Assembly (NCBI GenBank): GCA_900318995.1
Contig: ONMR01000001.1
Span: forward strand, 186,001 to 250,000
Reading direction: 5' to 3'
Source of the DNA: an uncultured Prevotellaceae bacterium
GTDB lineage: Bacteria; Bacteroidota; Bacteroidia; Bacteroidales; Bacteroidaceae
Length of the DNA: 64,000 nt
Translations under genes and position numbers: made by a program
The notes under the pieces: model-generated
The model's database searches: none
What the model saw: only the letters and a program-made list of their open reading frames with translations
Told to the model about the DNA's origin: nothing
In this document: one piece after another, positions 14,169 through 45,259 of the stretch
How the letters are laid out: the number at the start of each line of letters is the position of its first letter
Numbering within the stretch: the stretch's first letter is position 1

Positions 14169-14206
14169 AAAAAAATCAGTTCCGAATTAAGGGAACTGAT
14201 TTTTTT
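14169..14206. terminator. Bidirectional terminator at the left prophage edge
   Basis: AAAAAAATCAGTTCC (14169-14183) and its complement (14192-14206) form a perfect 15-bp stem. Without the prophage it would directly follow the tRNA-Asn gene on the minus strand, so it is probably that tRNA's natural terminator, now separated from it by 31 kb. Confidence 0.85.
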
Positions 14207-14221
14207 GCGCTCCTTCTAGGA
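14206..14221. other. attL core, 16 bp
   Basis: TGCGCTCCTTCTAGGA is identical to 45184-45199, the 3' end of the tRNA-Asn gene. The sequences diverge at once on the right. Only the last part of the tRNA is present here. Confidence 0.85.
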
Positions 14222-14285
14222 ACTTTTATGATTTTGTAACCGGTTGACATTCGTGCTGTTGCGGCGGGTTAGTATCTGTTTGGTA

Positions 14286-14828
14286 TCATTTTGGATAAAA
14301 TAAGTATGTTACACTCATGCTGATGCCGGCCGATATCCCATGCTCGCTGCCTTTCACCGACAACGTTATGTATCTGCCGGTATAGACAAGGCCAAGACCA
14401 AGGCTTAAAGCATTATGTTCTTTTGTCACCTTGTCCTTGCCGTAGTACGCGTCATCCATCCGGTCCTCGACTCTCTGATAAGACAGGAACGGCAGCAGGT
14501 TCAGGCATCTGTGATCCTGCGACCAGAACGTGTAGAGATATCCGGCGGCTGCTGTCATCAAGAAGTGTCGGTCACTCTCACTGCCAGCTCCGTATCTGGT
14601 CTCCTCTGCATGGTCGCGGTTGGAACCTGCGCTCATATACAGACCGGCAAGAGATATCTCACATCCCAGGGTTATATTTGATGATACCCCGATATCAGAT
14701 ATAGGGTTGCACATCCCAACCTCCAGCCCGCCAAGGTATTTTTCTCTCGGATTCTGCTCCGGAAACCATCTGGCATCTGCGGATAAGCAGACACACAGCA
14801 TCACGGATGTTAATATCAGACGGTTCAT
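14286..14828 (-). CDS. Secreted barrel-like protein, candidate lysogenic conversion gene
   Basis: The 180-residue product starts with a signal peptide (MNRLILTSVMLCVCLSADA). The mature part alternates hydrophobic and polar residues in strands (LGGLEVGM, NITLGCEISLAGLYMSAG, LSLGLGLVYTGRYITLSVKG) and ends in SMSVTYLFYPK. It therefore looks like a small outer-membrane beta-barrel with an aromatic-type C-terminus. I chose the ATG at 14828 because the longer frame would remove the signal peptide from the N-terminus. It lies 13 bases after the repressor gene on the same strand, so it would be expressed in the lysogen. Superinfection exclusion or surface change is inference. Confidence 0.7.
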   Translation of the reverse strand: MNRLILTSVMLCVCLSADARWFPEQNPREKYLGGLEVGMCNPISDIGVSSNITLGCEISLAGLYMSAGSNRDHAEETRYGAGSESDRHFLMTAAAGYLYTFWSQDHRCLNLLPFLSYQRVEDRMDDAYYGKDKVTKEHNALSLGLGLVYTGRYITLSVKGSEHGISAGISMSVTYLFYPK

Positions 14829-16855: not shown

Positions 16856-16929
16856 GGTGGGATGGCGCAGATGGCAAGCGCACTGCAGCTACATTGCAGA
16901 GGTCGCAGGTTCGAGTCCTGCTCCCGCTA
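16856..16929 (+). tRNA. Phage tRNA, apparent Val(TAC), unusual anticodon loop
   Basis: A complete cloverleaf can be drawn: acceptor 7 bp (two G-U), D-stem 4 bp, anticodon stem CTGCA/TGCAG, variable loop 5 nt, T-stem GCAGG/CCTGC with a TTCGAGT loop. Then discriminator A and CA follow. The anticodon loop is GCTACAT, giving anticodon TAC at 16890-16892. Position 33, almost always U, is C here, and position 32 is G. It may be poorly active or not a translator at all. Confidence 0.65.
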
Positions 16930-16944
16930 CAAATAACAAAATAA

Positions 16945-17931
16945 ATGAAGATAGGCCTTGTTGACATAGACGGCCATGCCGGAAAGAAGAAATGGGGAGC
17001 CACAATCTACCCCAACCTGGCGTTGTGTAAAATAGCACGCTATCACCGTCTCCATGGAGACTCTGTGGAGTGGGCTATGCCGATAGAGCGCTATGATCGC
17101 GTATACATCAGCAAGATCTTTAATTACTCGCAGGATGACAAGACTGTCTACAACGCAGCAGAGATAATTCGTGGAGGCACAGGATATGATATATCATCGC
17201 ACCTGCCTACAGAAATAGACCGCCTTCAGCCGGATTACTCCATTTACCCTCATATCCCTGCAGATTATGCGTATGGGTTCCTGACCCGCGGATGTATCAA
17301 CAGTTGTAAGTGGTGTGTCGTTCCACGCAAGGAAGGAGCAACCAGACCATATATGGATGTTGATGATATCGCCTGGAGAGAGAGAGTTAATCTTGTGCTC
17401 ATGGATAACAACTTCCTCTCGGCTGGCGAGTACGCTGTTGAGCAACTGGCCAAGATTATTGAGCGTGGATACAGGATCGACTTCAATCAGGCTCTCGATG
17501 CCCGGCTTGTAGACAGCAGGTTTGCCCGGCTGCTGGCCGAAGTAAGATGGATCAAGCGCATCCGGTTCGGATGTGATACGCCCGCACAGATTGACGAATG
17601 TGAGCAGGCTATGTCTCTAATAAACAGTTATGGGTACAGAGGGGAATACTTCCTATACTGCATGCTTAATAATAACATCAAGGAGTGCTACTATCGACTG
17701 CACTACTGGTGGGAGCGAAATCAGCAATGCAGGGACAGTCATTTACCCAATATATACCCATTTGCACAGCCATACAGACCCCTGGATAACCCTTATCACA
17801 AAATTCCGCAGTGGCAGAAGGATATGGCGGGCTGGGTCAACAAAAAACAGCTGTTTCAGGTGACTGACTTTGACAGCTTTATGCCCCGCAAGGGTTTTTA
17901 CTGCTCTGATTACAGGAAACTATGGAACTGA
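16945..17931 (+). CDS. Radical SAM protein
   Basis: The product has 328 residues. The motif RGCINSCKWCVVPRKEG (about residues 116-132) holds a CxxxCxWC iron-sulfur site of the radical SAM type. It is preceded by a domain of about 110 residues that starts GLVDIDGH and resembles the B12-binding-like fold seen before some radical SAM domains. LVLMDNNFLS, FNQALDARLVD and IRFGCDT continue the barrel. Such enzymes methylate, thiolate or otherwise modify RNA, proteins or small molecules; the substrate here is unknown. It is encoded right after the phage tRNA and overlaps the next gene by 10 bases. Confidence 0.8.
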   Translation: MKIGLVDIDGHAGKKKWGATIYPNLALCKIARYHRLHGDSVEWAMPIERYDRVYISKIFNYSQDDKTVYNAAEIIRGGTGYDISSHLPTEIDRLQPDYSIYPHIPADYAYGFLTRGCINSCKWCVVPRKEGATRPYMDVDDIAWRERVNLVLMDNNFLSAGEYAVEQLAKIIERGYRIDFNQALDARLVDSRFARLLAEVRWIKRIRFGCDTPAQIDECEQAMSLINSYGYRGEYFLYCMLNNNIKECYYRLHYWWERNQQCRDSHLPNIYPFAQPYRPLDNPYHKIPQWQKDMAGWVNKKQLFQVTDFDSFMPRKGFYCSDYRKLWN

Positions 17932-18263
17932 AAAAACTGACATACAAAGAGCTGGCGGCTTATATTGACGCTGCTGAGCAGGAGCTGACGGTCCGTCACA
18001 CCAGCGTATATGACGCTGCCGGCAACCGGCTGGCCGAGGTGCGTAAGCCGCTGGCATCGGAGCTGCCCGTCCGCGCCTGTTATAACTGCCTCCATGCGGA
18101 GCGGGGTAGAGGACTCTGGGGTGAGGAGATATACTTCTGTCCCAAGGCTGTCAAGCCAGGCAGCAAGGCGATATTCGTCACGGTGAGCCGCAACGGATTA
18201 TGTGAACACTTCACTGTTAAAGCCGACGAGGGCTATGGTTTGTCAATGGATATATGGTACTGA
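17922..18263 (+). CDS. Small zinc-ribbon-like phage protein
   Basis: The product has 113 residues: an N-terminal helix (LTYKELAAYIDAAEQEL), then four cysteines in two pairs (RACYNCLHAE, YFCP..., GLCEHF) that could bind a metal. It overlaps the radical SAM gene, so the two are probably translated together and may work together. No family is recognised. Confidence 0.6.
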   Translation: MELKKLTYKELAAYIDAAEQELTVRHTSVYDAAGNRLAEVRKPLASELPVRACYNCLHAERGRGLWGEEIYFCPKAVKPGSKAIFVTVSRNGLCEHFTVKADEGYGLSMDIWY

Positions 18264-18264
18264 T

Positions 18265-18612
18265 ATGAGAGTGACAATATACTGGAAAGTTGACGGGTAT
18301 AAGACTCATAACCTGATATGGTATGCCGGTCTCCCGATGAACGTCAGTGTCAACGGTGAGCAATACCTTGACGTTACCGACGAGCAGATGGAGCACCTCA
18401 AGGAGTTTGAAGCATCCGGGTGGCTGGAGTTCCGTTACAAGGAGCTGAAGGAGGTTAACGGTCAGTTGTACCCCACCGGTGACGAGTACCTGAGTAACAG
18501 ATGTATTAAAGTAACCAATCAACCCACTTTTAATAATATCTTTTATGGCAAGAACAAAGAAACAGAAAGACGTCCCCGCACCCAGCGTAGAGCGTCAAGA
18601 ACCAGCCGCTGA
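18265..18612 (+). CDS. Phage protein of unknown function, overlapping the ParB-like gene
   Basis: The 115-residue product has a beta-rich N-terminus (VTIYWKVDGYKTHNLIWYAG) and helical DVTDEQMEHLKEFEASGW. The last 20 or so residues are a basic tail read out of frame from the start of the next gene (68-base overlap), so the true C-terminus may once have ended earlier. It starts 1 base after the previous stop. Confidence 0.55.
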   Translation: MRVTIYWKVDGYKTHNLIWYAGLPMNVSVNGEQYLDVTDEQMEHLKEFEASGWLEFRYKELKEVNGQLYPTGDEYLSNRCIKVTNQPTFNNIFYGKNKETERRPRTQRRASRTSR

Positions 18613-20278
18613 GCAGAGCCAGCTGCTGATGTTACCGGTGGCCAGTCTGCGGCCATCATCTCTCAACCCGCGCAAGACCGTGAGTGACGAATCACTCAAG
18701 GATCTGTGTGAGTCCATCGCCCGCTACGGCATACTGCAGCCTATCATCGTCCGTGAACTTGAGGATGTTCTGGACGAGGATAACGGAGAGATTATCGAGG
18801 GCGGCACGGAGATTATCTGTGGATACCGTCGCTGGCGCGCCTCCCAGATGCTGGGTCTTGAGACCATCCCCGCTCAGATCCGCCATCTTGACGACAAGGC
18901 AGCCCTGGACCTGATGATAACCGAGAACCTGCAGCGTGAGGATATCAGTCCCCTGGAGGAGGCCGAGGCATATGCCGCACTCATAGAGCATAACGGTTTT
19001 GTGGCAGAGCTGGCCGCCCGGTTCGGTAAGAGCGAGAAGTATATCCGCGGCCGCTTGTATCTGAATGATTTGACTGATGACCTCAAGGCCTGCCTCACCG
19101 ACGGCCGTCTGCTGCTGTCAGCCGCCATCGAACTGGGTAAGATGTCACCCTCCGCGCAGGATGAGTTCTATGATAATTACATCGAGGAGCCGGAGAAGGA
19201 TAAGGCAATCATACCCGCCACCCTATCCGATGTCAGGCAATATCTGGAGAATGAGTCCAACGATCTGGATGACGAGCCGTTCCTTGAGGATGGTCCGGAT
19301 GAGAAGTGGAACCACGAGAAACCTCACTGCCAGCTGTGCGGCAAGAACTCATCCTCACAGCTCAGTCTGTTCTCCGAGCTGGCCGACGCTGGTCAGTGTC
19401 TTGACAAGGAATGTCTTGACGATAAGCGTATGGCTTACGCCGCGCATGTGGTACAGTTCTGGCTACCCAACCTGCTGCCGGCAGGGCGTCAACCGGATGA
19501 GGGTGATATAGTTATCTATGATGACTCGCAGTACTACAGGGATGAGTTCAAGGCAAAAATTAGTGCTATCAGGTCACTGGTCAAGTCAGCACAGGTTATC
19601 GGCAGTAACTATAGCCGGATCTGGAATAAGACGGATAAGTGTCCCGTCGGAGCTTTCCGCGCCATATCACTATCCGACCTCATTCAGGGCCGACCATATA
19701 TGTTGTTCTTCAAGGTTCCGCCTGTCAAGAGCCAGGAACCCAAGGAGCGCACGCACGATGATGTGTATAACTCGCTGACCAAGCTCCTGGAAAAGCGCCA
19801 GCAGGAGATATATGACATATTGCTGCCGATGAGCCAGGCGGCGCTGGAGTCTTACTTCGCCACCGACGATGCTCAAGCTCTGCACCTGCCGCCGTTCCTG
19901 GAGGCCTTTGTGGCATATACAGTCATCAATGATATGTCATATGGTGCATACAAAGGTATGGGGCTCTCTGACACTTCGCTGGATACAATAGACCGCTATA
20001 TGGATGAGGGTCACCGGCTGTCGGATGTGCTGCACGCCGCGCTGACGGACCGTATCAACAACGGCCAGTCATATCTCAAGCCCCGCCTGTTGGAGCTGGT
20101 GATGACCGGTGTCGCAGAGAGCGCCACGGCCGAGGCCACCGAGAAGATCTACGACAAGTATCGGCCCAAGAGAGACAAGCTCATCGCCGAGCTGGCCGAG
20201 ATGGGATATGACCAATACAACCGTCCCCTGGAACCTGAACCGGATGGAGAGGATAAGTCGGATGATAATAACGAGTGA
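18545..20278 (+). CDS. ParB-like N-terminal domain protein with zinc finger
   Basis: The 577-residue product has a ParB/Srx-like N-terminal domain: LPVASLRPSSLNPRK, LCESIARYGILQPI and GYRRWRA (about residues 30-100). A KorB-like HTH follows (AELAARFGKSEKYIRGRLYL, about residues 155-180). At about residues 258-300 there is a Cys/His cluster (HCQLCGKN... CLDKECLDD) that probably binds zinc. The C-terminal 250 residues are helical. Phage ParB-like proteins act in segregation, regulation or, in some, as nucleases (the GYRRWRA box). It has the size of the long phage form, with no ParA beside it. Confidence 0.8.
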   Translation: MARTKKQKDVPAPSVERQEPAAEQSQLLMLPVASLRPSSLNPRKTVSDESLKDLCESIARYGILQPIIVRELEDVLDEDNGEIIEGGTEIICGYRRWRASQMLGLETIPAQIRHLDDKAALDLMITENLQREDISPLEEAEAYAALIEHNGFVAELAARFGKSEKYIRGRLYLNDLTDDLKACLTDGRLLLSAAIELGKMSPSAQDEFYDNYIEEPEKDKAIIPATLSDVRQYLENESNDLDDEPFLEDGPDEKWNHEKPHCQLCGKNSSSQLSLFSELADAGQCLDKECLDDKRMAYAAHVVQFWLPNLLPAGRQPDEGDIVIYDDSQYYRDEFKAKISAIRSLVKSAQVIGSNYSRIWNKTDKCPVGAFRAISLSDLIQGRPYMLFFKVPPVKSQEPKERTHDDVYNSLTKLLEKRQQEIYDILLPMSQAALESYFATDDAQALHLPPFLEAFVAYTVINDMSYGAYKGMGLSDTSLDTIDRYMDEGHRLSDVLHAALTDRINNGQSYLKPRLLELVMTGVAESATAEATEKIYDKYRPKRDKLIAELAEMGYDQYNRPLEPEPDGEDKSDDNNE

Positions 20279-36714: not shown

Positions 36715-37518
36715 ATGGAAGAAAATGCGATTATAGATCTTGGGAAGATAGGGCTCACATTTGACCCTAACCCATGGAACGCCGCCAAGGCGTATGAGAA
36801 GTATACGGTCATCATGCATAATGGCCGTGGATGGGTCTCTCTTGTTGATAACAAGGGGCATGAACCGTCCGAGACCGATCCGATGTGGATGATTATATCC
36901 GACAGTGGCGAGTCGCTGTATCAGATGATGGTACGCACTGGCCGGTTTGTCGGTACCGAGGATGAGTTCTTGCAGCAGTATCAGGATGCTCTGTCTGCCG
37001 CTGTCAATGCCGCAGCTGAAGCGAGAGCTGCCGCCACAGATGTGCAGGCAAAGGGCGAGGCTGCTCTGGCCGCCGCCTCTGCTGCAGAGCAAGCAGCAGC
37101 TGCCGCCGGCTCTGCAGCCGATGATGCGATAAACGCCAAGAACACCGCGCTGGCCGCTGCCGGTCAGGCCGAGGGTTCCGCTGCCGCCGCACGTGAGGCT
37201 GCCACCGATGCCGGTGCTGCTGCTGATCTGGCACGCGAAAAGGCCACGCAAGCCGGCGCCGCTGCCACATCAGCCAACGAGGAGGCAGCCGCCGCCCATC
37301 AGGCTGTGGTAGAAACCGGAGCTGCTACAGAGGCCGCCAATGCTGCCGCAGGGGCCGCCAATGCTGCCGCAGCATCTGTAACCAATCACACCCTCGGTAT
37401 TGATTTTGATCCCACCACGGGACTGCTGCAGGGCGTGTACGGCTCCCACGGTTCTATCCTTGACGTAGAGATGGACCAGGAGACCGGTCAGATAGTTGTA
37501 ACAGAGCAAATTGATTAA
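36715..37518 (+). CDS. Alanine-rich coiled-coil fibre protein
   Basis: The 267-residue protein starts with a carbohydrate-module-like part (NPWNAAKAYEKYTVIMHNGRGWVSLVDNKG). A long Ala-rich helix follows (about residues 97-225), with heptads of A and E/Q, then a terminal GSHGSILDVEMDQETGQIVV. The form is that of a tail fibre shaft. It begins 2 bases after the previous gene. Confidence 0.65.
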   Translation: MEENAIIDLGKIGLTFDPNPWNAAKAYEKYTVIMHNGRGWVSLVDNKGHEPSETDPMWMIISDSGESLYQMMVRTGRFVGTEDEFLQQYQDALSAAVNAAAEARAAATDVQAKGEAALAAASAAEQAAAAAGSAADDAINAKNTALAAAGQAEGSAAAAREAATDAGAAADLAREKATQAGAAATSANEEAAAAHQAVVETGAATEAANAAAGAANAAAASVTNHTLGIDFDPTTGLLQGVYGSHGSILDVEMDQETGQIVVTEQID

Positions 37519-37529
37519 TCCAGATAATT

Positions 37530-39191
37530 ATGTCAGAACAAACTACAACCACAAGGAATCTGGGCTACGTACCGGTAGGACGTGGCGCCTGGAACGCTCA
37601 GACCATGTATTACCCCGGTAATATCGTGGTTAACCGCTTGTCTACATTCATGTGTACAACACAGGGTAAGAACAACGAGCCTATAGTAACCGTCACCGCC
37701 GGTGTTCCCAGCTGCAATGCCGGATGGCAGATCGTCGCCACCGCCGACCCTGCAATCCAGGCTGCTCTGGCCGCAGCCGCAGCCGCAGCCAGCATAGAGA
37801 CCAGACTGCTGGCCGGAACCCTCATCCCTGCGCTGGCCGCAGATCTGAGCGGTAACGCCAACACCATCGAGTCCACCGACCAGTATATAGTACGTACCAC
37901 CGCCGGTGACAACAGCATCGACTCATCGGCACCGGCCAAGCTGCTGTCTATCCGTGGCGGCATCAACGCAGCCGGCCCGTTCCGTATCAAGGGATACAAG
38001 TGGCTCGGGTTCAACCTGCTCAACCCGTCACAGACGGTAGGTGGCGTCTGCTACTTCCAGGTACCCAAGTGTACACAGGGTCACTATGGCACCGCAGAGG
38101 AGAATAACGGCATACTGTTCACGGATCGTCAGGGCAACAACCTGCACCCGACAGTGCGCTTTGTTGCCGGTTATACCGCTCCGTCCACAGCTAACGACGG
38201 CGTGATACTCAATCCGTATCAGTTCGCCGGTCACAGCGAGTATTTCTATGCCCCCAATGAGCCGGGCTTCCTGATCGTCAGCGGTATCACCCCTGCCGAT
38301 GTATGCGCTCATATGGCATGGTCCAAGGATTATGACCGTTTTGTGGCTTACAACGCCGGATACACTATCGACCTGTATGTGTCACCGCTCACCACAGCCT
38401 TTGACACTAACGCCGGATCTCTCATCCTTCGCGGACTGTCCGGCACTGACCGTTCCGTCAGCGATTATATCATCATCAGCGGCGAGGCTGCCGGTGGCAG
38501 CTATGGCAGAATGATAGGTCACGCTCTGCTGACCTCACTCACATGGCGTAAGGATACCGAGACCACCGAGAACCAGGGCGAGACCCAGACTGTATACGTA
38601 TACTCAGCCACACTGTCGGCAGCTGCCGCAGATGGCCTGACACGTATCGAGCAGGAGGGCATGGAGTTCGAAGGTAACACGCTCTCATACCGCACCGCCG
38701 ACATCGCTACGCTCACCGGTTTCCGCGAGCTCATCGCCGGCAAGTATGTGGATTATGAGCTGGCCACACCCGTCACCGGCACTCACAGCATCAGCACCCT
38801 TGACAAGTATGCCGATGACATGTCTCTTGAGGTCGTCGTGGGCGGTGACAACCCCGCCGGTTACATCACCACGCAGTACTCCATGGGATATAAGGACACG
38901 GTGCGATACCTGCCTCTGCTTGTCGAGCAGGACGAGCGTATTGCGGCACATGCCCTGTGCCAGCTCAACGGCCGCATAGACAGCCTCTCCCAGATCGTGG
39001 GTGCACTGATGATGTTCCTCTCTCCGGATATGGTCAAGGGCAAGCGCGTGTTCCTTAGCGGTGACGGCGCTCCCGAGAGTGCTCCGGATATGTTGCCTCA
39101 GTTCTATTTTGACGAGACCAACCAGGCACAGTACATGTCTACCGGCACCACGTCGGCAGCAGACTGGAAGCTCATCACCCCGAGTGTTTAA
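37530..39191 (+). CDS. Tail fibre-like protein
   Basis: The 553-residue product has an N-terminal module like that of the previous gene (GYVPVGRGAWNAQTMYYPGNIVVNRLSTFMC). A short Ala helix (AAAAAAASIETR) is followed by a large beta-rich part with no recognised domain. The region near the end has FYFDETNQAQYMSTG. It is probably a receptor-binding or shaft fibre subunit. No second variable repeat was seen in it. Confidence 0.6.
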   Translation: MSEQTTTTRNLGYVPVGRGAWNAQTMYYPGNIVVNRLSTFMCTTQGKNNEPIVTVTAGVPSCNAGWQIVATADPAIQAALAAAAAAASIETRLLAGTLIPALAADLSGNANTIESTDQYIVRTTAGDNSIDSSAPAKLLSIRGGINAAGPFRIKGYKWLGFNLLNPSQTVGGVCYFQVPKCTQGHYGTAEENNGILFTDRQGNNLHPTVRFVAGYTAPSTANDGVILNPYQFAGHSEYFYAPNEPGFLIVSGITPADVCAHMAWSKDYDRFVAYNAGYTIDLYVSPLTTAFDTNAGSLILRGLSGTDRSVSDYIIISGEAAGGSYGRMIGHALLTSLTWRKDTETTENQGETQTVYVYSATLSAAAADGLTRIEQEGMEFEGNTLSYRTADIATLTGFRELIAGKYVDYELATPVTGTHSISTLDKYADDMSLEVVVGGDNPAGYITTQYSMGYKDTVRYLPLLVEQDERIAAHALCQLNGRIDSLSQIVGALMMFLSPDMVKGKRVFLSGDGAPESAPDMLPQFYFDETNQAQYMSTGTTSAADWKLITPSV

Positions 39192-39210: not shown

Positions 39211-40539
39211 ATGAAAAAGTATTTGAATATGTATGCTGACCGCCAGGACTACGCCAGTGAGTCCCGTCCTGCCGATGGCAGCGTAGTCAGTAAGATAGGT
39301 CCTGACGTACAGTATGACGGAGTGAACGTAGAAGTGCTTGACCCCGAGGTAGGCGATGCTGTCTATCATGATCCGGACGGCAAGCTGCACTACTTTAAGC
39401 ATGACACCATACGCCAGTCTCAGATGCCCAACATCTTCACACGTGTGGGTGTCGTCCTGCCCGAGGCATCAGGCCGTATCCTTATCGGTCACGTGTTCGG
39501 CGCCGATAAGAAGTGGGCTGACGTGTTCCGCTGGGTGGTGACCGGCTCTGCCATGACGGACGGTGCATCGCACACCGCTACCTTCGCTGTCGGAGCAGAC
39601 AGTGTAGAGGTCACCTGGCAGGCCACAACCATTGAGGGCTTTGCCAGCGCAGTGCAGTCGGCCATCGGTGCTCAGTCTTTCGGTGGCCATTCCTTCAGCT
39701 GCTATGCTGACGGTGACAAGGTATACATCCAGCATGACACATACACCACCTGGAAGGAGCCTACCTTCAGCGGCCTCACCCTGACAAGGGATATCGGCAC
39801 GAAGATCACCGCCGACTCCAACGCTTACAAGGAGAATGGTGTCGGCAGCGAGGGTGCCGTATACTCACTGTCAAGGGCCATCGCCGCTCTGAGCAGCGAC
39901 CGTACCGAGTCGTGGGCCAACCCGACCACCGATGTGGTATCCAACCCGACCTATCCGGTATGTCTGCCGGCATACCTGGGTGAGTCTGCAGTGGCCGGTG
40001 CTGATCACTGCGCATGGCTGCGCGCCAAGTACGGCGAGGGCTTTGATGGTTGGGTGAACTTCCTGAAGTCTATGATGCCGCGCATCCCCGCCTCACGCGG
40101 CGCCCTGCGTAATGCCCTCTCTGACGGTTGGAAGAATACCTATGCTCACGCATACGACACATACAAGACACCGGCCGGTGTCATCAAGCCTCTGTATCCC
40201 GCCTTTGACTATGCCGCCAGCATCGGCTATCCGGTCAAGGGTCTGGAACAGGGTCGCTGGTTCGTGCCGTCGCTCCGCACTATGTCTGAGATCAAGGCTG
40301 TCATCACCATGGGAGGTATCGGAGTGTCAGCTGCTACAGCAGATGTCATCACCCGCACCTTGAACGCCATGGGTGGCACCATAGAGTCCAACTCCGCCCT
40401 CATGTGGTGTTCAGGTCGGTACTACACCGTCAACGCCTGGCTCGCTCACGGTGGCGTCGCGTTCCTGAACGGCTACATCTTCTACGGCACTTACCGTGTG
40501 TGGCCCTGCGTGCTTCTTGAAAGAAACCTTGAATCTTGA
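39211..40539 (+). CDS. DGR target: tail protein with C-type lectin-like C-terminus
   Basis: The product has 442 residues. The N-terminal 100 residues contain a DPEVGDAVYHDPDGKLHYF segment. A FISUMP/CLec-like domain follows in the second half (AIAALSSDRTESWANP, ESAVAGADHCAWLRAKYG, WFVPSLRTMSEIKAV). The end is the variable repeat (codons 395-434; ALMWCSGRYY to RVWPCV), then LLERNLES. Trp397, Gly, Trp and the C-terminal RVWPC frame the surface loops, so the 12 codons that differ from the template lie in a ligand-binding face, as in the Bordetella phage Mtd fold. Stop codons cannot arise from changes in AAC codons. Its role is adhesion and probably receptor switching. Confidence 0.8.
   Translation: MKKYLNMYADRQDYASESRPADGSVVSKIGPDVQYDGVNVEVLDPEVGDAVYHDPDGKLHYFKHDTIRQSQMPNIFTRVGVVLPEASGRILIGHVFGADKKWADVFRWVVTGSAMTDGASHTATFAVGADSVEVTWQATTIEGFASAVQSAIGAQSFGGHSFSCYADGDKVYIQHDTYTTWKEPTFSGLTLTRDIGTKITADSNAYKENGVGSEGAVYSLSRAIAALSSDRTESWANPTTDVVSNPTYPVCLPAYLGESAVAGADHCAWLRAKYGEGFDGWVNFLKSMMPRIPASRGALRNALSDGWKNTYAHAYDTYKTPAGVIKPLYPAFDYAASIGYPVKGLEQGRWFVPSLRTMSEIKAVITMGGIGVSAATADVITRTLNAMGGTIESNSALMWCSGRYYTVNAWLAHGGVAFLNGYIFYGTYRVWPCVLLERNLES
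40393..40512 (+). repeat. Variable repeat (VR) of the DGR
   Basis: These 120 bases align without gaps to the TR at 41075-41194. Eighteen positions differ, all adenine in the TR (9 A to T, 6 A to G, 3 A to C); the 87 non-A positions are all identical. The last 15 bases (GTGTGGCCCTGCGTG) are identical in both and form the probable IMH-like end. Confidence 0.95.
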
Positions 40540-40546
40540 ACTTAAT

Positions 40547-40570
40547 ACCAGCGGCCTCCGTGCCGCTGGT
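40547..40570 (+). promoter_or_regulatory. Hairpin downstream of the VR
   Basis: ACCAGCGGC (40547-40555) and GCCGCTGGT (40562-40570) form a perfect 9-bp stem with a 6-nt loop, 34 bases after the VR and just after the stop codon of the target gene. Hairpins or cruciforms just after the VR aid retrohoming in the Bordetella phage DGR. It could also be a plain terminator, but no T-tract follows. Confidence 0.65.
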
Positions 40571-40579
40571 TGATTGAAT

Positions 40580-41023
40580 ATGAAACAGGATAAGGCAGGA
40601 GTCTATGTCGATGCCAAGAAACTGCGCAGGTGCTTGCATGCTGCGCAGTTCTGTATGACTAAGGCTGACCGCATAATATACAGTACTCCGGCACTCATCG
40701 CCTGTGGTGATATTATCGGTTACTTCCAGCTGGCGTATGACATTCCGGAACAGAGGGAGTATTATATCCACATGTTCATCAAGTCGTTTGCCGTGCTGCG
40801 TGCCGACATAGAGGAGATGTTCGAGCTGGAGATCATCCGTCCGTCCAGCACCACGGCCATCGTCATGAACGACAAGGAAAAGGAGTCTGTCAACGGCCGT
40901 CAGCTCCTGCTGCGTATCATTGAACTGCTTGCCAGGATAGATGAAGGTATCAACAAGTGGCGGTTGAGCCTGAAGGTGGGGACACGACCGGCTGAGTCCC
41001 AGCCGGCAGCACCTAAAGAATGA
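40580..41023 (+). CDS. avd: DGR accessory protein, Avd-like
   Basis: The 147-residue product is mostly helical (four long helices: KKLRRCLHAAQFCMTKADRI, GDIIGYFQLAYDIPEQREYYIHM, FAVLRADIEEMFELE, RQLLLRIIELLARIDEGINKWRL). It matches the four-helix bundle of accessory variability determinants, which form a pentamer that binds RT and TR RNA. It stands between VR gene and TR, the usual place. The ATG at 40580 was chosen over TTG at 40574. Confidence 0.8.
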   Translation: MKQDKAGVYVDAKKLRRCLHAAQFCMTKADRIIYSTPALIACGDIIGYFQLAYDIPEQREYYIHMFIKSFAVLRADIEEMFELEIIRPSSTTAIVMNDKEKESVNGRQLLLRIIELLARIDEGINKWRLSLKVGTRPAESQPAAPKE

Positions 41024-41074
41024 AGGAGCACATGCCGTCATTTACGGCTACAACCAAGATAATGTGCCCAATGG

Positions 41075-41194
41075 TCCGCCAACATGTGGTGTTCAGGTCG
41101 GTACAACACCAACAACGCCTGGAACGCTAACGGTGGCAACGCGTACCTGAACAACAACAACTTCTACAACACTAACCGTGTGTGGCCCTGCGTG
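41075..41194 (+). repeat. Template repeat (TR) of the DGR
   Basis: It has 33 adenines in 120 bases. Read in the VR frame it holds 13 AAC codons, which after adenine mutagenesis can give many amino acids but no stop. It lies 52 bases after avd and 25 bases before the RT start. Transcribed TR RNA plus flanks is expected to be the RT template. Confidence 0.95.
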
Positions 41195-41219
41195 AATCAT
41201 TCCGTAACGTACCATCCCT

Positions 41220-42431
41220 ATGATTACACTGGAAGATTTGTACACTGCCATGCTGCGCACCCGGAAAAACAAGCGCAACTCTGCCGACTCTGTTGAGTTT
41301 GAGTTGCACTGGGAGCGTAACCTGTGTCAGATCAAGAGAGATATCGACAATCACACCTTCAGGCCGACCGCCTATACCTTCATACGCCGCTATCCCAAAC
41401 CCCGCGAGGTCTTTGCCTGCTGCTTCGCCCTGCGTCTGCTCCATCACTATCTGGATATCCGCATGCGGCCGCTCATAGAGATGGAACTGACCACCCGCAC
41501 CTATAACAACCGCGAGGGTTACGGCCAGTATGCCGCCGTCAACAAAGTCATAGAGGACATGTATGACGTGAGCCACGGCTATACCCGTGACGCGTATTAC
41601 ATACAGCTGGACCTTCAGGGTTATTTCCCCAACGCCAGACAGGACTATGCGTTCAGTCTCCTGGAAGAACTGATGCTCCGCCGCTATCACGGTGCCGACC
41701 TCGACGAGATGCACTACATCCTTCAGGTATCGATATTCTCCTATCCCACATGGCACTGCACCCGCCGCACACCTATATGGCAGTGGGTGGACATTCCCAA
41801 GGGCAAGAGTCTGTTTGAGAAACCTCCCGGCATCGGAGGTGCTATCGGCCATCTCATCTGGCAGAACACCATGAACTACTATCTGAACGTTCTGGACCAC
41901 TGGGCTGTTGATGAGTGTGGGCTTCATTATGTCCGTTTCGTTGATGACATTGTGATATGTACTGACAACAAGGAGGTGGTGCTGTCCATGCTGCCGGAAT
42001 TCCGCCGCCGACTGGCGCTGGTAGGCTGCGTGATGCATCCGCACAAGTTCTACTGTCAGCACTGGAGTAAGGGTATCACATTCCTGGGTGTGCACATCAA
42101 GATAGACCGTATCTACGTGGATGACCGCACTCTGCGCCGCGCCCGTCACATGCTGTCCACCTTCAGCAGCTGCTGCCGTCAGGATAAGATAGACAGTTTC
42201 ATTGCGAGCATGAACAGCTACCTGGGCCTGCTCAAGGGCCGTAACGAGTATAACAACATTATGAGGCTCATTGAGGCTATCCCTGAGAAGTGGCTGAAAT
42301 ATGTGCGGTTCGTCAGCGAGCGTCTGTGTATAAACGCCAGGGACGGATATCATCACCTTGAGGTACTGGCCCGCCGGTATCACTTGTCGGACAGATGGCT
42401 GGTTAAAAGTAAAAAGAACAAAAGAGGATAA
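41220..42431 (+). CDS. DGR reverse transcriptase
   Basis: The 403-residue enzyme copies the TR RNA into cDNA with errors at A. The catalytic triad is Asp131 in YIQLDLQGYFPN and Asp242-Asp243 in RFVDD. The DGR-type motif 4 is present as GIGGAIGHLIWQ (about residues 204-215), where other RTs have QGxxxSP. Length fits DGR RTs (about 300-450). It has no RNase H or endonuclease domain, as expected. It ends 3 bases before the holin-like gene. Confidence 0.93.
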   Translation: MITLEDLYTAMLRTRKNKRNSADSVEFELHWERNLCQIKRDIDNHTFRPTAYTFIRRYPKPREVFACCFALRLLHHYLDIRMRPLIEMELTTRTYNNREGYGQYAAVNKVIEDMYDVSHGYTRDAYYIQLDLQGYFPNARQDYAFSLLEELMLRRYHGADLDEMHYILQVSIFSYPTWHCTRRTPIWQWVDIPKGKSLFEKPPGIGGAIGHLIWQNTMNYYLNVLDHWAVDECGLHYVRFVDDIVICTDNKEVVLSMLPEFRRRLALVGCVMHPHKFYCQHWSKGITFLGVHIKIDRIYVDDRTLRRARHMLSTFSSCCRQDKIDSFIASMNSYLGLLKGRNEYNNIMRLIEAIPEKWLKYVRFVSERLCINARDGYHHLEVLARRYHLSDRWLVKSKKNKRG

Positions 42432-43839: not shown

Positions 43840-44994
43840 TCACTGCGCAAGGCCGCTCAGCCGCTCAGCCTGTTTCTGTATCATCGGACGCTGCACCTTT
43901 GCGTATATCATTGTGGTTTGGATGTTCTTATGCCCCATCATCTTCTGTAGGATCTCTACCGGTACTCCGTTGCCCAGCGCGACCGTAGTGGCAAAGGTGT
44001 GCCTTCCGTTATGGGTACTTATGCGTTTATGTATCCCAAGCAGGTCGAGCAGTTCGACCAGCACCCGCCTATAGTTGTCATAGGGCAGGTGCGGGATGGT
44101 GTAGTTATACCGCTCCAGGATACGCTTTGTCTGTGGCAATATCACCGTCGTGTAGTAACCTCCGGTCTTGACGCGGCGGCCGCTCAACGTATCATCTGTA
44201 ATGTTCTGAAAGTCGGCGGCCATCAGATCTGTGAAGCACAGGCCTGTCCAGATCTGGAGCAAAAACAGGTCACGGACATGCTGCGTATAGAGGCTGCGTG
44301 ACTCAAACCGTTCTATGCGGTGTATCTCATCCATCGTTAGGACCTCCCTGGGTCTTGACTCCCCTTTATCGGTCTTGATACATGTGTAAGGGTTGGCTTT
44401 CATGAGCCCCGCCCGGACCGCTCTGCCGATGTAGGCCTTGATGATCTTATGATAGTTATAGATGGAAGTCTGCATCATCGGCCGCTTATTGACGGTACGG
44501 GTATGCAGTATCTTGTCGAGTGCATTGATGGTGCTGACTGTGAGCTGACAGAAATCTGTGATATGCTGCTCCATCAGGAACTGTAGCACGGTGCGGTGAT
44601 GTATCAGTGTGCTGGCTGCCAGCCGGCGGCTATCCATCTCTGCGCGCATGAAGTCAATAAACCCGGTCCCGCCACCTGACTGCCGTATCTTGAGAGTGTC
44701 GAGCATAGACCACGAAAAACACTCACCGTCATCATTACACCTGTTGACGATATCGATGATGGCCCGCTGATGATGTTGGAGTATGATGTTAAGCTGCGAG
44801 GCGTCGGGACGTGACACAACCTGTTCGGCAGTGAACTGACCCAGATAAACCTTAACGCCTGTAGATAGGAACTTCCGCTCACCGTTGATGGTCACGGATA
44901 ACTGGATGAGACCCCTTGTCGGGTTCTTTGCTGTGGGCTTGGTAGCCACATGTTTGCGGTCAAATACCGCACTTACTTTAATAGTGTTGAGCAT
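43840..44994 (-). CDS. int: Tyrosine recombinase (phage integrase)
   Basis: The 384-residue integrase has an N-terminal arm-binding and SAM-like core domain and a catalytic domain with HNGRHTFATTV (His and Arg), MMGHKNIQTT (His) and MIYAKV (Tyr near residue 366). At the first Arg position it has TGLCFTDL, i.e. Cys instead of Arg, as in IntDOT-type Bacteroides recombinases where this Arg is also absent. It is encoded towards the phage interior, beside attR. It catalyses recombination at tRNA-Asn. Confidence 0.9.
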   Translation of the reverse strand: MLNTIKVSAVFDRKHVATKPTAKNPTRGLIQLSVTINGERKFLSTGVKVYLGQFTAEQVVSRPDASQLNIILQHHQRAIIDIVNRCNDDGECFSWSMLDTLKIRQSGGGTGFIDFMRAEMDSRRLAASTLIHHRTVLQFLMEQHITDFCQLTVSTINALDKILHTRTVNKRPMMQTSIYNYHKIIKAYIGRAVRAGLMKANPYTCIKTDKGESRPREVLTMDEIHRIERFESRSLYTQHVRDLFLLQIWTGLCFTDLMAADFQNITDDTLSGRRVKTGGYYTTVILPQTKRILERYNYTIPHLPYDNYRRVLVELLDLLGIHKRISTHNGRHTFATTVALGNGVPVEILQKMMGHKNIQTTMIYAKVQRPMIQKQAERLSGLAQ

Positions 44995-45183
44995 AATGTT
45001 ATTTATTATGCCTCAACAGCTGCCGGATGTTACCTGTTTGGTATCAATGGCGGTATCTGTTTGGTATCACTTTTGTGGCCTAAAATGGCCCGAAGTGTGC
45101 TGTTTTTACCGCCAGGATAATGAGCTAAGAACTAATAAAATGAGCGAAACGCCATTTAATCAGCATATTAGTCATTATTTCTG

Positions 45184-45199
45184 TGCGCTCCTTCTAGGA
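45184..45199. other. attR core, 16 bp
   Basis: Identical to 14206-14221 and overlapping the 3' end of the tRNA-Asn gene (acceptor strand and part of the T-stem). Integration here rebuilds the tRNA. Confidence 0.85.
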
Positions 45200-45259
45200 C
45201 TTGAACCTAGGACCCCCTGATTAACAGTCAGATGCTCTAACCAACTGAGCTAAAGAAGC
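45186..45259 (-). tRNA. tRNA-Asn(GTT)
   Basis: Minus-strand cloverleaf: acceptor GCTTCTT/AAGGAGC, D-arm with AGTTGGTTA loop, anticodon loop CTGTTAA (anticodon GTT), T-arm CTAGG-TTCAAGT-CCTAG, discriminator G. It is intact and is the integration site. Confidence 0.95.

Follow-up and report, generated by a model that had tools for sequence, protein, structure and literature searches.

Diversity-generating retroelements (DGRs) are a known means by which phages rewrite their host-contact proteins, and the locus considered here, which lies in 64,000 nucleotides of DNA from an uncultured Prevotellaceae bacterium (contig ONMR01000001.1, positions 186,001 to 250,000; the whole stretch is called the window below, and all positions are those of the window), raises the question of whether a cassette with the parts of a DGR, and yet with an unusual reverse transcriptase (RT) motif and an unusual hairpin, really is one. 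We argue that it is very probably the complete DGR of a temperate phage, because pairs of a template repeat (TR) and a variable repeat (VR) occur both in the window and in its relatives, because its RT takes its place among DGR enzymes in a tree, and because the full cassette is present, in the order target gene, hairpin, avd, TR and RT, as a preliminary description of the locus had read it (Table 1). The class itself is already known; what appears to set this cassette apart from the usual published phage DGRs are two uncommon variants, namely tryptophan in place of serine in motif 4 of the RT, and a six-nucleotide hairpin loop, CTCCGT, in place of a GRNA loop.

The TR and VR align over 120 bp without a gap and differ at 18 positions, all of which fall on the 33 adenines of the TR (9 to T, 6 to G and 3 to C), the remaining 87 positions being the same; the chance of 18 differences all hitting 33 adenines among 120 positions at random is about 1e-12. 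Twelve codons differ, 11 of them AAC in the TR, and the figures given in the preliminary description were all reproduced. The final 18 bases of the VR equal those of the TR and are free of adenine, and the two repeats diverge straight afterwards; in DGRs, the initiation of mutagenic homing region lies at the 3' end of the VR and differs from the TR. A GC-only 14-mer like that of the Bordetella phage BPP-1 was not found at the 3' end of the VR. The VR is placed 24 coding bases ahead of the stop of the target open reading frame (ORF), in whose frame adenine changes in the TR could alter at most 19 codons, could create no stop codon and would allow at most about 6e18 protein variants. That no stop can arise is weak evidence for this frame, because the other two frames hold only one and two stop-capable codons. 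A TR search of the same genome (42 contigs, an estimated 87% complete) listed 13 matches, the TR, the VR and 11 of 14-26 bases, and no second VR was seen among them.

Has this VR been rewritten lately, as the words "recently active" in the preliminary description implied? An IMG/VR contig, L010, 95.9% identical to the window over 4 kb and carrying the same cassette, allows an affirmative answer, in the sense of rewriting since the two split (a further contig, L009, shows no difference from the window in 4 kb and, as possibly the same genome, was not counted as independent evidence). Within L010, 17 positions separate the VR from the TR, all of them TR adenines, and the VRs of the window and L010 differ at 17 of the 33 adenine positions as against 2 of the 87 others (Fisher p 8e-10). 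The two TRs have two non-A differences, and each VR has its own TR's base at both; since both non-A differences between the VRs thus follow changes in their own TRs, the TR must have been copied into the VR after the split. In the hairpin stretch and the short flanks of the TR there is no difference between the window and L010. Codon changes in the VR were nonsynonymous in 11 cases and synonymous in 1, compared with 12 and 52 in the target body before it (Fisher 2e-6 for the nonsynonymous excess) and 0 and 1 in the nine codons after it. The TR was thus copied into the VR since the split, and amino-acid change is concentrated in the VR. A VR longer by six bases (AATCAT in the TR, CTTCTT in the VR) was also considered; three A positions would fit, but the window and L010 are the same there, and the end was kept.

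What, then, of the enzyme? The RT matches RVT_1, a phage RT family of PHROGs and the solved RT 8ub7 (E 4e-14), which equals the enzyme of BPP-1 over 328 residues, and it matches the BPP-1 RT by profile as well; it also matches several PADLOC models of defence RTs more weakly, as is common among RTs. The RFVDD that had been claimed for it is present, whereas motif 4, quoted as GIGGAIGHLIWQ and called DGR-type, turned out to be a variant: it reads IGHLIWQ, with I, G and Q kept and S replaced by W, and so departs from the usual signature. According to the accessible text of PMC3521204, that signature is (I/V/L)GxxxSQ in RT domain 4, with S in most described DGR RTs; 15 of 155 elements depart from it in the two final residues, so that it is no strict requirement, and the variants named there are SP, SH, NQ, PA, AQ and VQ, with WQ not among them. 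Nor did text searches, with most subscription papers and all supplements outside their reach, find a paper naming the WQ variant.

RT relatives came from contigs, both viral and genomic, and from genomes that share the window's family, order or phylum. Motif 4 among 80 distinct RT ORFs read SQ in 43 (S-type), WQ in 30 (W-type), SP in two that are group II-like, TQ in one and MQ in one, and was unreadable in three; one of the two search patterns includes WQN, so these shares are not prevalences. The genomes searched formed overlapping sets of 101, 395, 393 and 399, some matches in the three larger sets having no assigned locus, and among the loci read W was confined to the window's own genome and two others of its family (G032 and G327). 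These two account for the WQ loci of the family sample (24 loci: 2 WQ, 17 SQ, 2 TQ, 3 unread), while the order sample had no W (28 loci: 25 SQ, 3 unread). W was also found on two contigs of metagenome-assembled genomes (MAGs), one Prevotella sp. and one Bacteroidales. At the active site, 27 of the W-type RTs have FVDD and the other 3 YVDD; of the 43 S-type RTs, 42 have Y.

In the main RT tree, a small one with motif columns omitted and five of the 80 RTs dropped as fragments (L103, L023, L109, L097 and L110), whose rows include BPP-1 and three group II-like RTs and no retrons or other RT classes, the window RT groups with RTs having TR/VR pairs, BPP-1 among them (SH-like approximate likelihood-ratio test, SH-aLRT, 99 versus the group II-like rows), and its assignment to the DGR clade is thereby borne out. 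All 30 W-type RTs lie in one clade of 32 rows (SH-aLRT 100), together with one S (L054) and one M (L084); next to it stand those of the phages Bacuni F2 and F4 (S) and BS-TP1 (T). A second tree, of 40 chosen rows with the motif columns kept, gave the same clade (100/100). Both trees need three changes of the motif label, and the simplest reading would be that W was gained once and that two later changes followed.

The history of this clade bears on the possibility that the DGR was once active and is now dead, the TR and VR being relics and the tryptophan the mark of a damaged enzyme. Such a reading can point to the replacement of a residue that is S in most described DGR RTs, and to the fact that TR-to-VR copying is known only as a past event, from sequence. 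We regard it as very improbable: the RT, Avd-size and target frames are all present and open, the VR has been rewritten since the split from L010, and W is retained in 30/32 members of the clade, even where RT identity is as low as about 35-50%. Furthermore, W-type loci have a TR/VR pair in 27/30 cases with 483/500 differences at A, and S-type loci in 34/43 cases with 651/705, percentages that have a floor in both groups since a pair was accepted only with 75% or more of its differences at A. The three W-type loci that lack a pair (L011, L013 and L065) all start at the contig start; no pair turned up at the two group II-like loci, and for BPP-1 the annotated repeats came back with their exact ends. 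Judged by these pairs, adenine preference is intact in the W clade. As the SQ motif was proposed to set adenine-specific infidelity (PMC3521204, accessible text), a clade without its serine in which adenine preference is undiminished would mean that the serine is not needed.

Some further observations concern these RT loci. The very diverged RT of L084 (3998-5176; AAPGKIIMQ, YGDD) has an adjacent TR/VR pair with 18/19 differences at A. A-to-C changes make up 105/483 in W-type and 75/651 in S-type loci (p 2e-5, uncorrected for kinship); the loci are related, so this was not used. From the end of the TR to the start of the RT there are 25 nt in the window (41194-41220), and the gap is of similar size in most W-type loci and in Bacuni F2/F4 (33 nt); it is longer in BPP-1, at 144 nt, and in several S-type loci, at 113-213 nt. 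An RNA spacer, if needed, must therefore extend into the RT gene. With a possible structured RNA at the beginning of the RT gene in mind, synonymous change was counted: it amounts to 39/234 in the first 40 codons of the RT and 642/2467 in the rest (8 pairs, one without codons in the first part, and the pairs disagree).

The second departure is the hairpin that follows the VR. In phage DGRs, as the accessible text of PMC3240598 describes them, the VR is followed by a hairpin with a stem of 7-10 bp and a 4-nt GRNA loop; in BPP-1 this DNA hairpin functions in homing, and homing fell to near background when the loop was CTTT or was lengthened by 2 nt. In the window the hairpin lies 34 nt past the VR, and its stem is of such a length, but its loop is the 6-nt CTCCGT. 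The word "hairpin" is absent from the main text of PMC6642488 and PMC8144416, whose supplements were outside reach. A perfect stem of at least 8 bp within 110 nt past the VR was found in 19/27 W-type loci versus 12/540 random windows, and in 8/34 S-type loci versus 22/680. When the loop was left free of selection, 12 W-type hairpins combined a stem of at least 8 with a loop of 6 nt, and 11 of these loops read CTYYGT, three pairs among these hairpins being identical or nearly so; across eight distinct hairpins of the CTYYGT class, picked by loop, stem identity is 40% and loop identity 92%. With a stem of at least 7, a CTYYGT hairpin occurs in 12/31 W and M loci, once in each, and after the VR in the 11 with the VR present. 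Folding of 29 sites of this clade gave 13 CTYYGT loops (one widened to 8 nt), 6 GNNA, some of them above a bulged T, 9 other loops and one site with no hairpin, and the loop class changes nine times on the tree over 30 labelled rows. That the W motif and the CTYYGT loop arose together is ruled out by these mixed loops and nine changes; going by the folds and the tree, the two variants are not linked.

Could the hairpin instead act in RNA, as a control element of the avd gene downstream? It does lie in the gap from the stop of the target (40539) to the start of avd (40580), and its presence in so few S-type loci means that the element is not universal. This is, however, unlikely. No terminator-like site was found in 40300-41300, where one promoter-like match was no more than shuffles gave; the similar hairpin of BPP-1 works in homing; and hairpins also accompany VRs that are remote from avd. 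The target profile, run against the 24 records behind the W and M loci, gave a remote second VR-like match in five (G1180, G1184, G1186, G1187 and G1201), four of which have a hairpin whose loop class agrees with that of the main VR. The loop is TCGGCAACG at both VRs of G1184, on the same stem, TCGGTAACG at both VRs of G1187, on nearly the same stem, and CTCCGT at both VRs of G1201, on two different stems; G1180 has GACA and GCGA on different stems, and the match in G1186 stands at the contig start, with 16/20 differences at A and no clear hairpin. The two VRs of Bacuni F2 have GAAA and GCAA loops, again on different stems. Since remote VRs of four phages of the clade and of Bacuni F2 carry hairpins away from avd, the hairpin goes with the VR and not with avd.

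Loop class thus agrees in 5/5 comparable two-target phages, three times on different stems and twice on stems that were probably copied with the VR, and on these five cases it may be fixed per phage. If so, the machinery of each phage, or that of its host, would read a particular loop. What reads the loop can be tested directly with the 6-nt loops that occur in nature. It is possible, and we propose it tentatively, that there is a clade of phage DGRs of Bacteroidales range in which S gave way to W with adenine-only mutagenesis kept, in which many members have a CTYYGT 6-nt loop, and in which loop class switches often between phages and agrees within a phage. In four relatives, L204, L205, L206 and L208, the remote second DGR targets are ORFs of their own, 158-217 aa long, and a hairpin comes after each.

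The two protein partners of the RT are less readily named. Neither the Avd-like ORF nor the target matched a library family at E 0.001 in Pfam or PHROGs, nor one in NCBIfam even at E 1. The designation "Avd-like" therefore fails as a direct family match and stands by way of aligned relatives and the Bacuni F2 profile (Table 1); Avd-type accessory proteins are usual in DGRs, not universal. For the target, 2/18 aligned relatives match Lcl_C (best E 2.9e-4), and the target profile aligns with the Bacuni F2 target at its end (E 9e-10), in 86 columns that correspond to window residues 339-436; the C-type lectin-like variable domain is the commonest fold of DGR targets. PDB chains gave no convincing match to either profile. 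A search of 50,697 phage records at E 0.01 gave no relative of the target; IMG/VR contigs hold some, as do 3 other genomes of 301. The lack of a library family for a protein of this size, and a gene position between tail genes and lysis-side genes, would suit a protein of the lysogen surface or of the lysis module rather than of the virion tail. We doubt this strongly, as the gene comes after those for the tape measure, the tail tube and a collagen-like fibre, and as the homologous Bacuni target has the same place, its VR2 differences tracking host range (PMC8143477, accessible text). The target is thus probably a tail protein, as had been proposed, by its gene order and the homology of its C-terminus.

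In such a phage, the RT and its Avd partner would copy TR-derived RNA into cDNA with random errors opposite adenines, and the mutated cDNA would replace the VR at the 3' end of the target gene, with the downstream hairpin guiding homing. The target would be carried on the virion and bind the host, and variation of its C-terminus would most likely alter the surface molecule that the phage binds.

The nearest described relatives that we found appear to be the Bacuni phages of Bacteroides uniformis. As far as the accessible text of PMC8143477 goes, the DGR of Bacuni F1/F2/F4 is laid out like that of the window, with target, Avd, TR and RT followed by the amidase/integrase side, and shares the short TR-RT gap and a hairpin after the VR; the F2 RT is 33.5% identical over 397 aa, and its Avd and target C-terminus match by profile. 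The Bacuni phages have, however, SQ, the GAAA/GCAA loops and two targets, where WQ, CTCCGT and a single detected VR stand in the window, and the other window genes tried, 23 of 26, had no tblastn match at E 1e-4 in the F2/F4 stretches. BPP-1 shares the order of target, Avd, TR and RT, the adenine-only changes, the hairpin after the VR and an RT homologous by profile, and differs in its SQ motif, GAAA loop and longer TR-RT gap. Hankyphage (Bacteroides phage p00; PMC6199706, accessible text) is likewise a temperate phage of Bacteroides with a DGR and a VR at the C-terminus of its target, but is Mu-like and transposable, and its RT was unmatched at E 1e-3 (blastp of ORFs). Lastly, crAssE-Sib, an Epsilon crAss-like phage, resembles the window in having a DGR RT that departs from SQ in motif 4, there as GxxxSP, whereas in the window S becomes W and Q is kept; its DGR was missed by myDGR, for which the authors blame the motif (PMC11054128, accessible text), and search tools that depend on SQ may likewise miss elements such as the present one.

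These comparisons also supply what weighs against a complete DGR in the window. First, motif 4 has no serine, and the GRNA loop on which BPP-1 depends is absent from the hairpin, so that the enzyme or the site could be weaker than those of BPP-1. Second, BPP-1 Avd, BPP-1 Mtd and the target end of Hankyphage gave no profile match.

Table 1. Positions of the DGR cassette and of the prophage features around it.
Feature	Position	Strand	Remarks
DGR target gene, 442 aa, probable tail protein	39211..40539	+	VR is the last 40 triplets before a 9-codon tail
Variable repeat (VR)	40393..40512	+	18/18 differences at TR adenines
Hairpin after VR, 9-bp perfect stem, loop CTCCGT	40547..40570	+	shuffle z -6.0; identical in L010
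Avd-like accessory gene, 147 aa	40580..41023	+	Pfam bAvd in 3/19 aligned relatives; Bacuni F2 Avd profile match (E 1.1e-12)
Template repeat (TR)	41075..41194	+	33 A; 13 AAC codons in the target's frame
DGR reverse transcriptase, 403 aa	41220..42431	+	RVT_1; BPP-1 RT profile match; tree; motif 4 IGHLIWQ, RFVDD
Tyrosine integrase of prophage	43840..44994	-	Phage_integrase + Phage_int_SAM_5
Left attachment (att) core, 16 bp	14206..14221		exact repeat of 45184-45199
Right att core	45184..45199		overlaps 3' end of tRNA-Asn 45185-45259 (-)

The prophage that carries the cassette towards its right end is about 31 kb long, with the 16-bp exact repeat marking its two ends. Its head genes run in the order terminase, portal, head protease and major head protein, an order that we take to be of HK97 type, and are followed by the tail genes named above and then by the target; the "HK97-like" of the preliminary description thus agrees with the gene order found, the name itself being an inference. 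Its other labels held as well: the prophage appears non-transposable, given the tyrosine integrase and an att core at tRNA-Asn, with part of the ORFs scanned for transposases, and probably belongs to Bacteroidales, given relatives in one Prevotella and one Bacteroidales MAG and in Bacteroides phages. No close described relative of this phage was found. In L010 the stretches that match the window up to 45181 and from 14245 are only 41 nt apart, without the 16-bp core, and its left-end genes come directly after the integrase side, so that the prophage boundaries agree; L010 shows the related phage in joined form, excised or permuted. A 17-bp direct repeat, GTATCTGTTTGGTATCA, lies inside both prophage ends (45053-45069 and 14272-14288), with a 13-bp partial copy at 45034, and these repeats are possibly arm sites of the integrase. 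The gene at 36715-37518, beside the collagen-like gene, differs by 10.8% from L010 and its neighbour at 37530-39191 by only 2.7%, and the former may be a mosaic or fast-changing tail gene. At the left end of the prophage, 16856-20278 holds a tRNA-Val, a radical SAM gene and a ParB-like gene.

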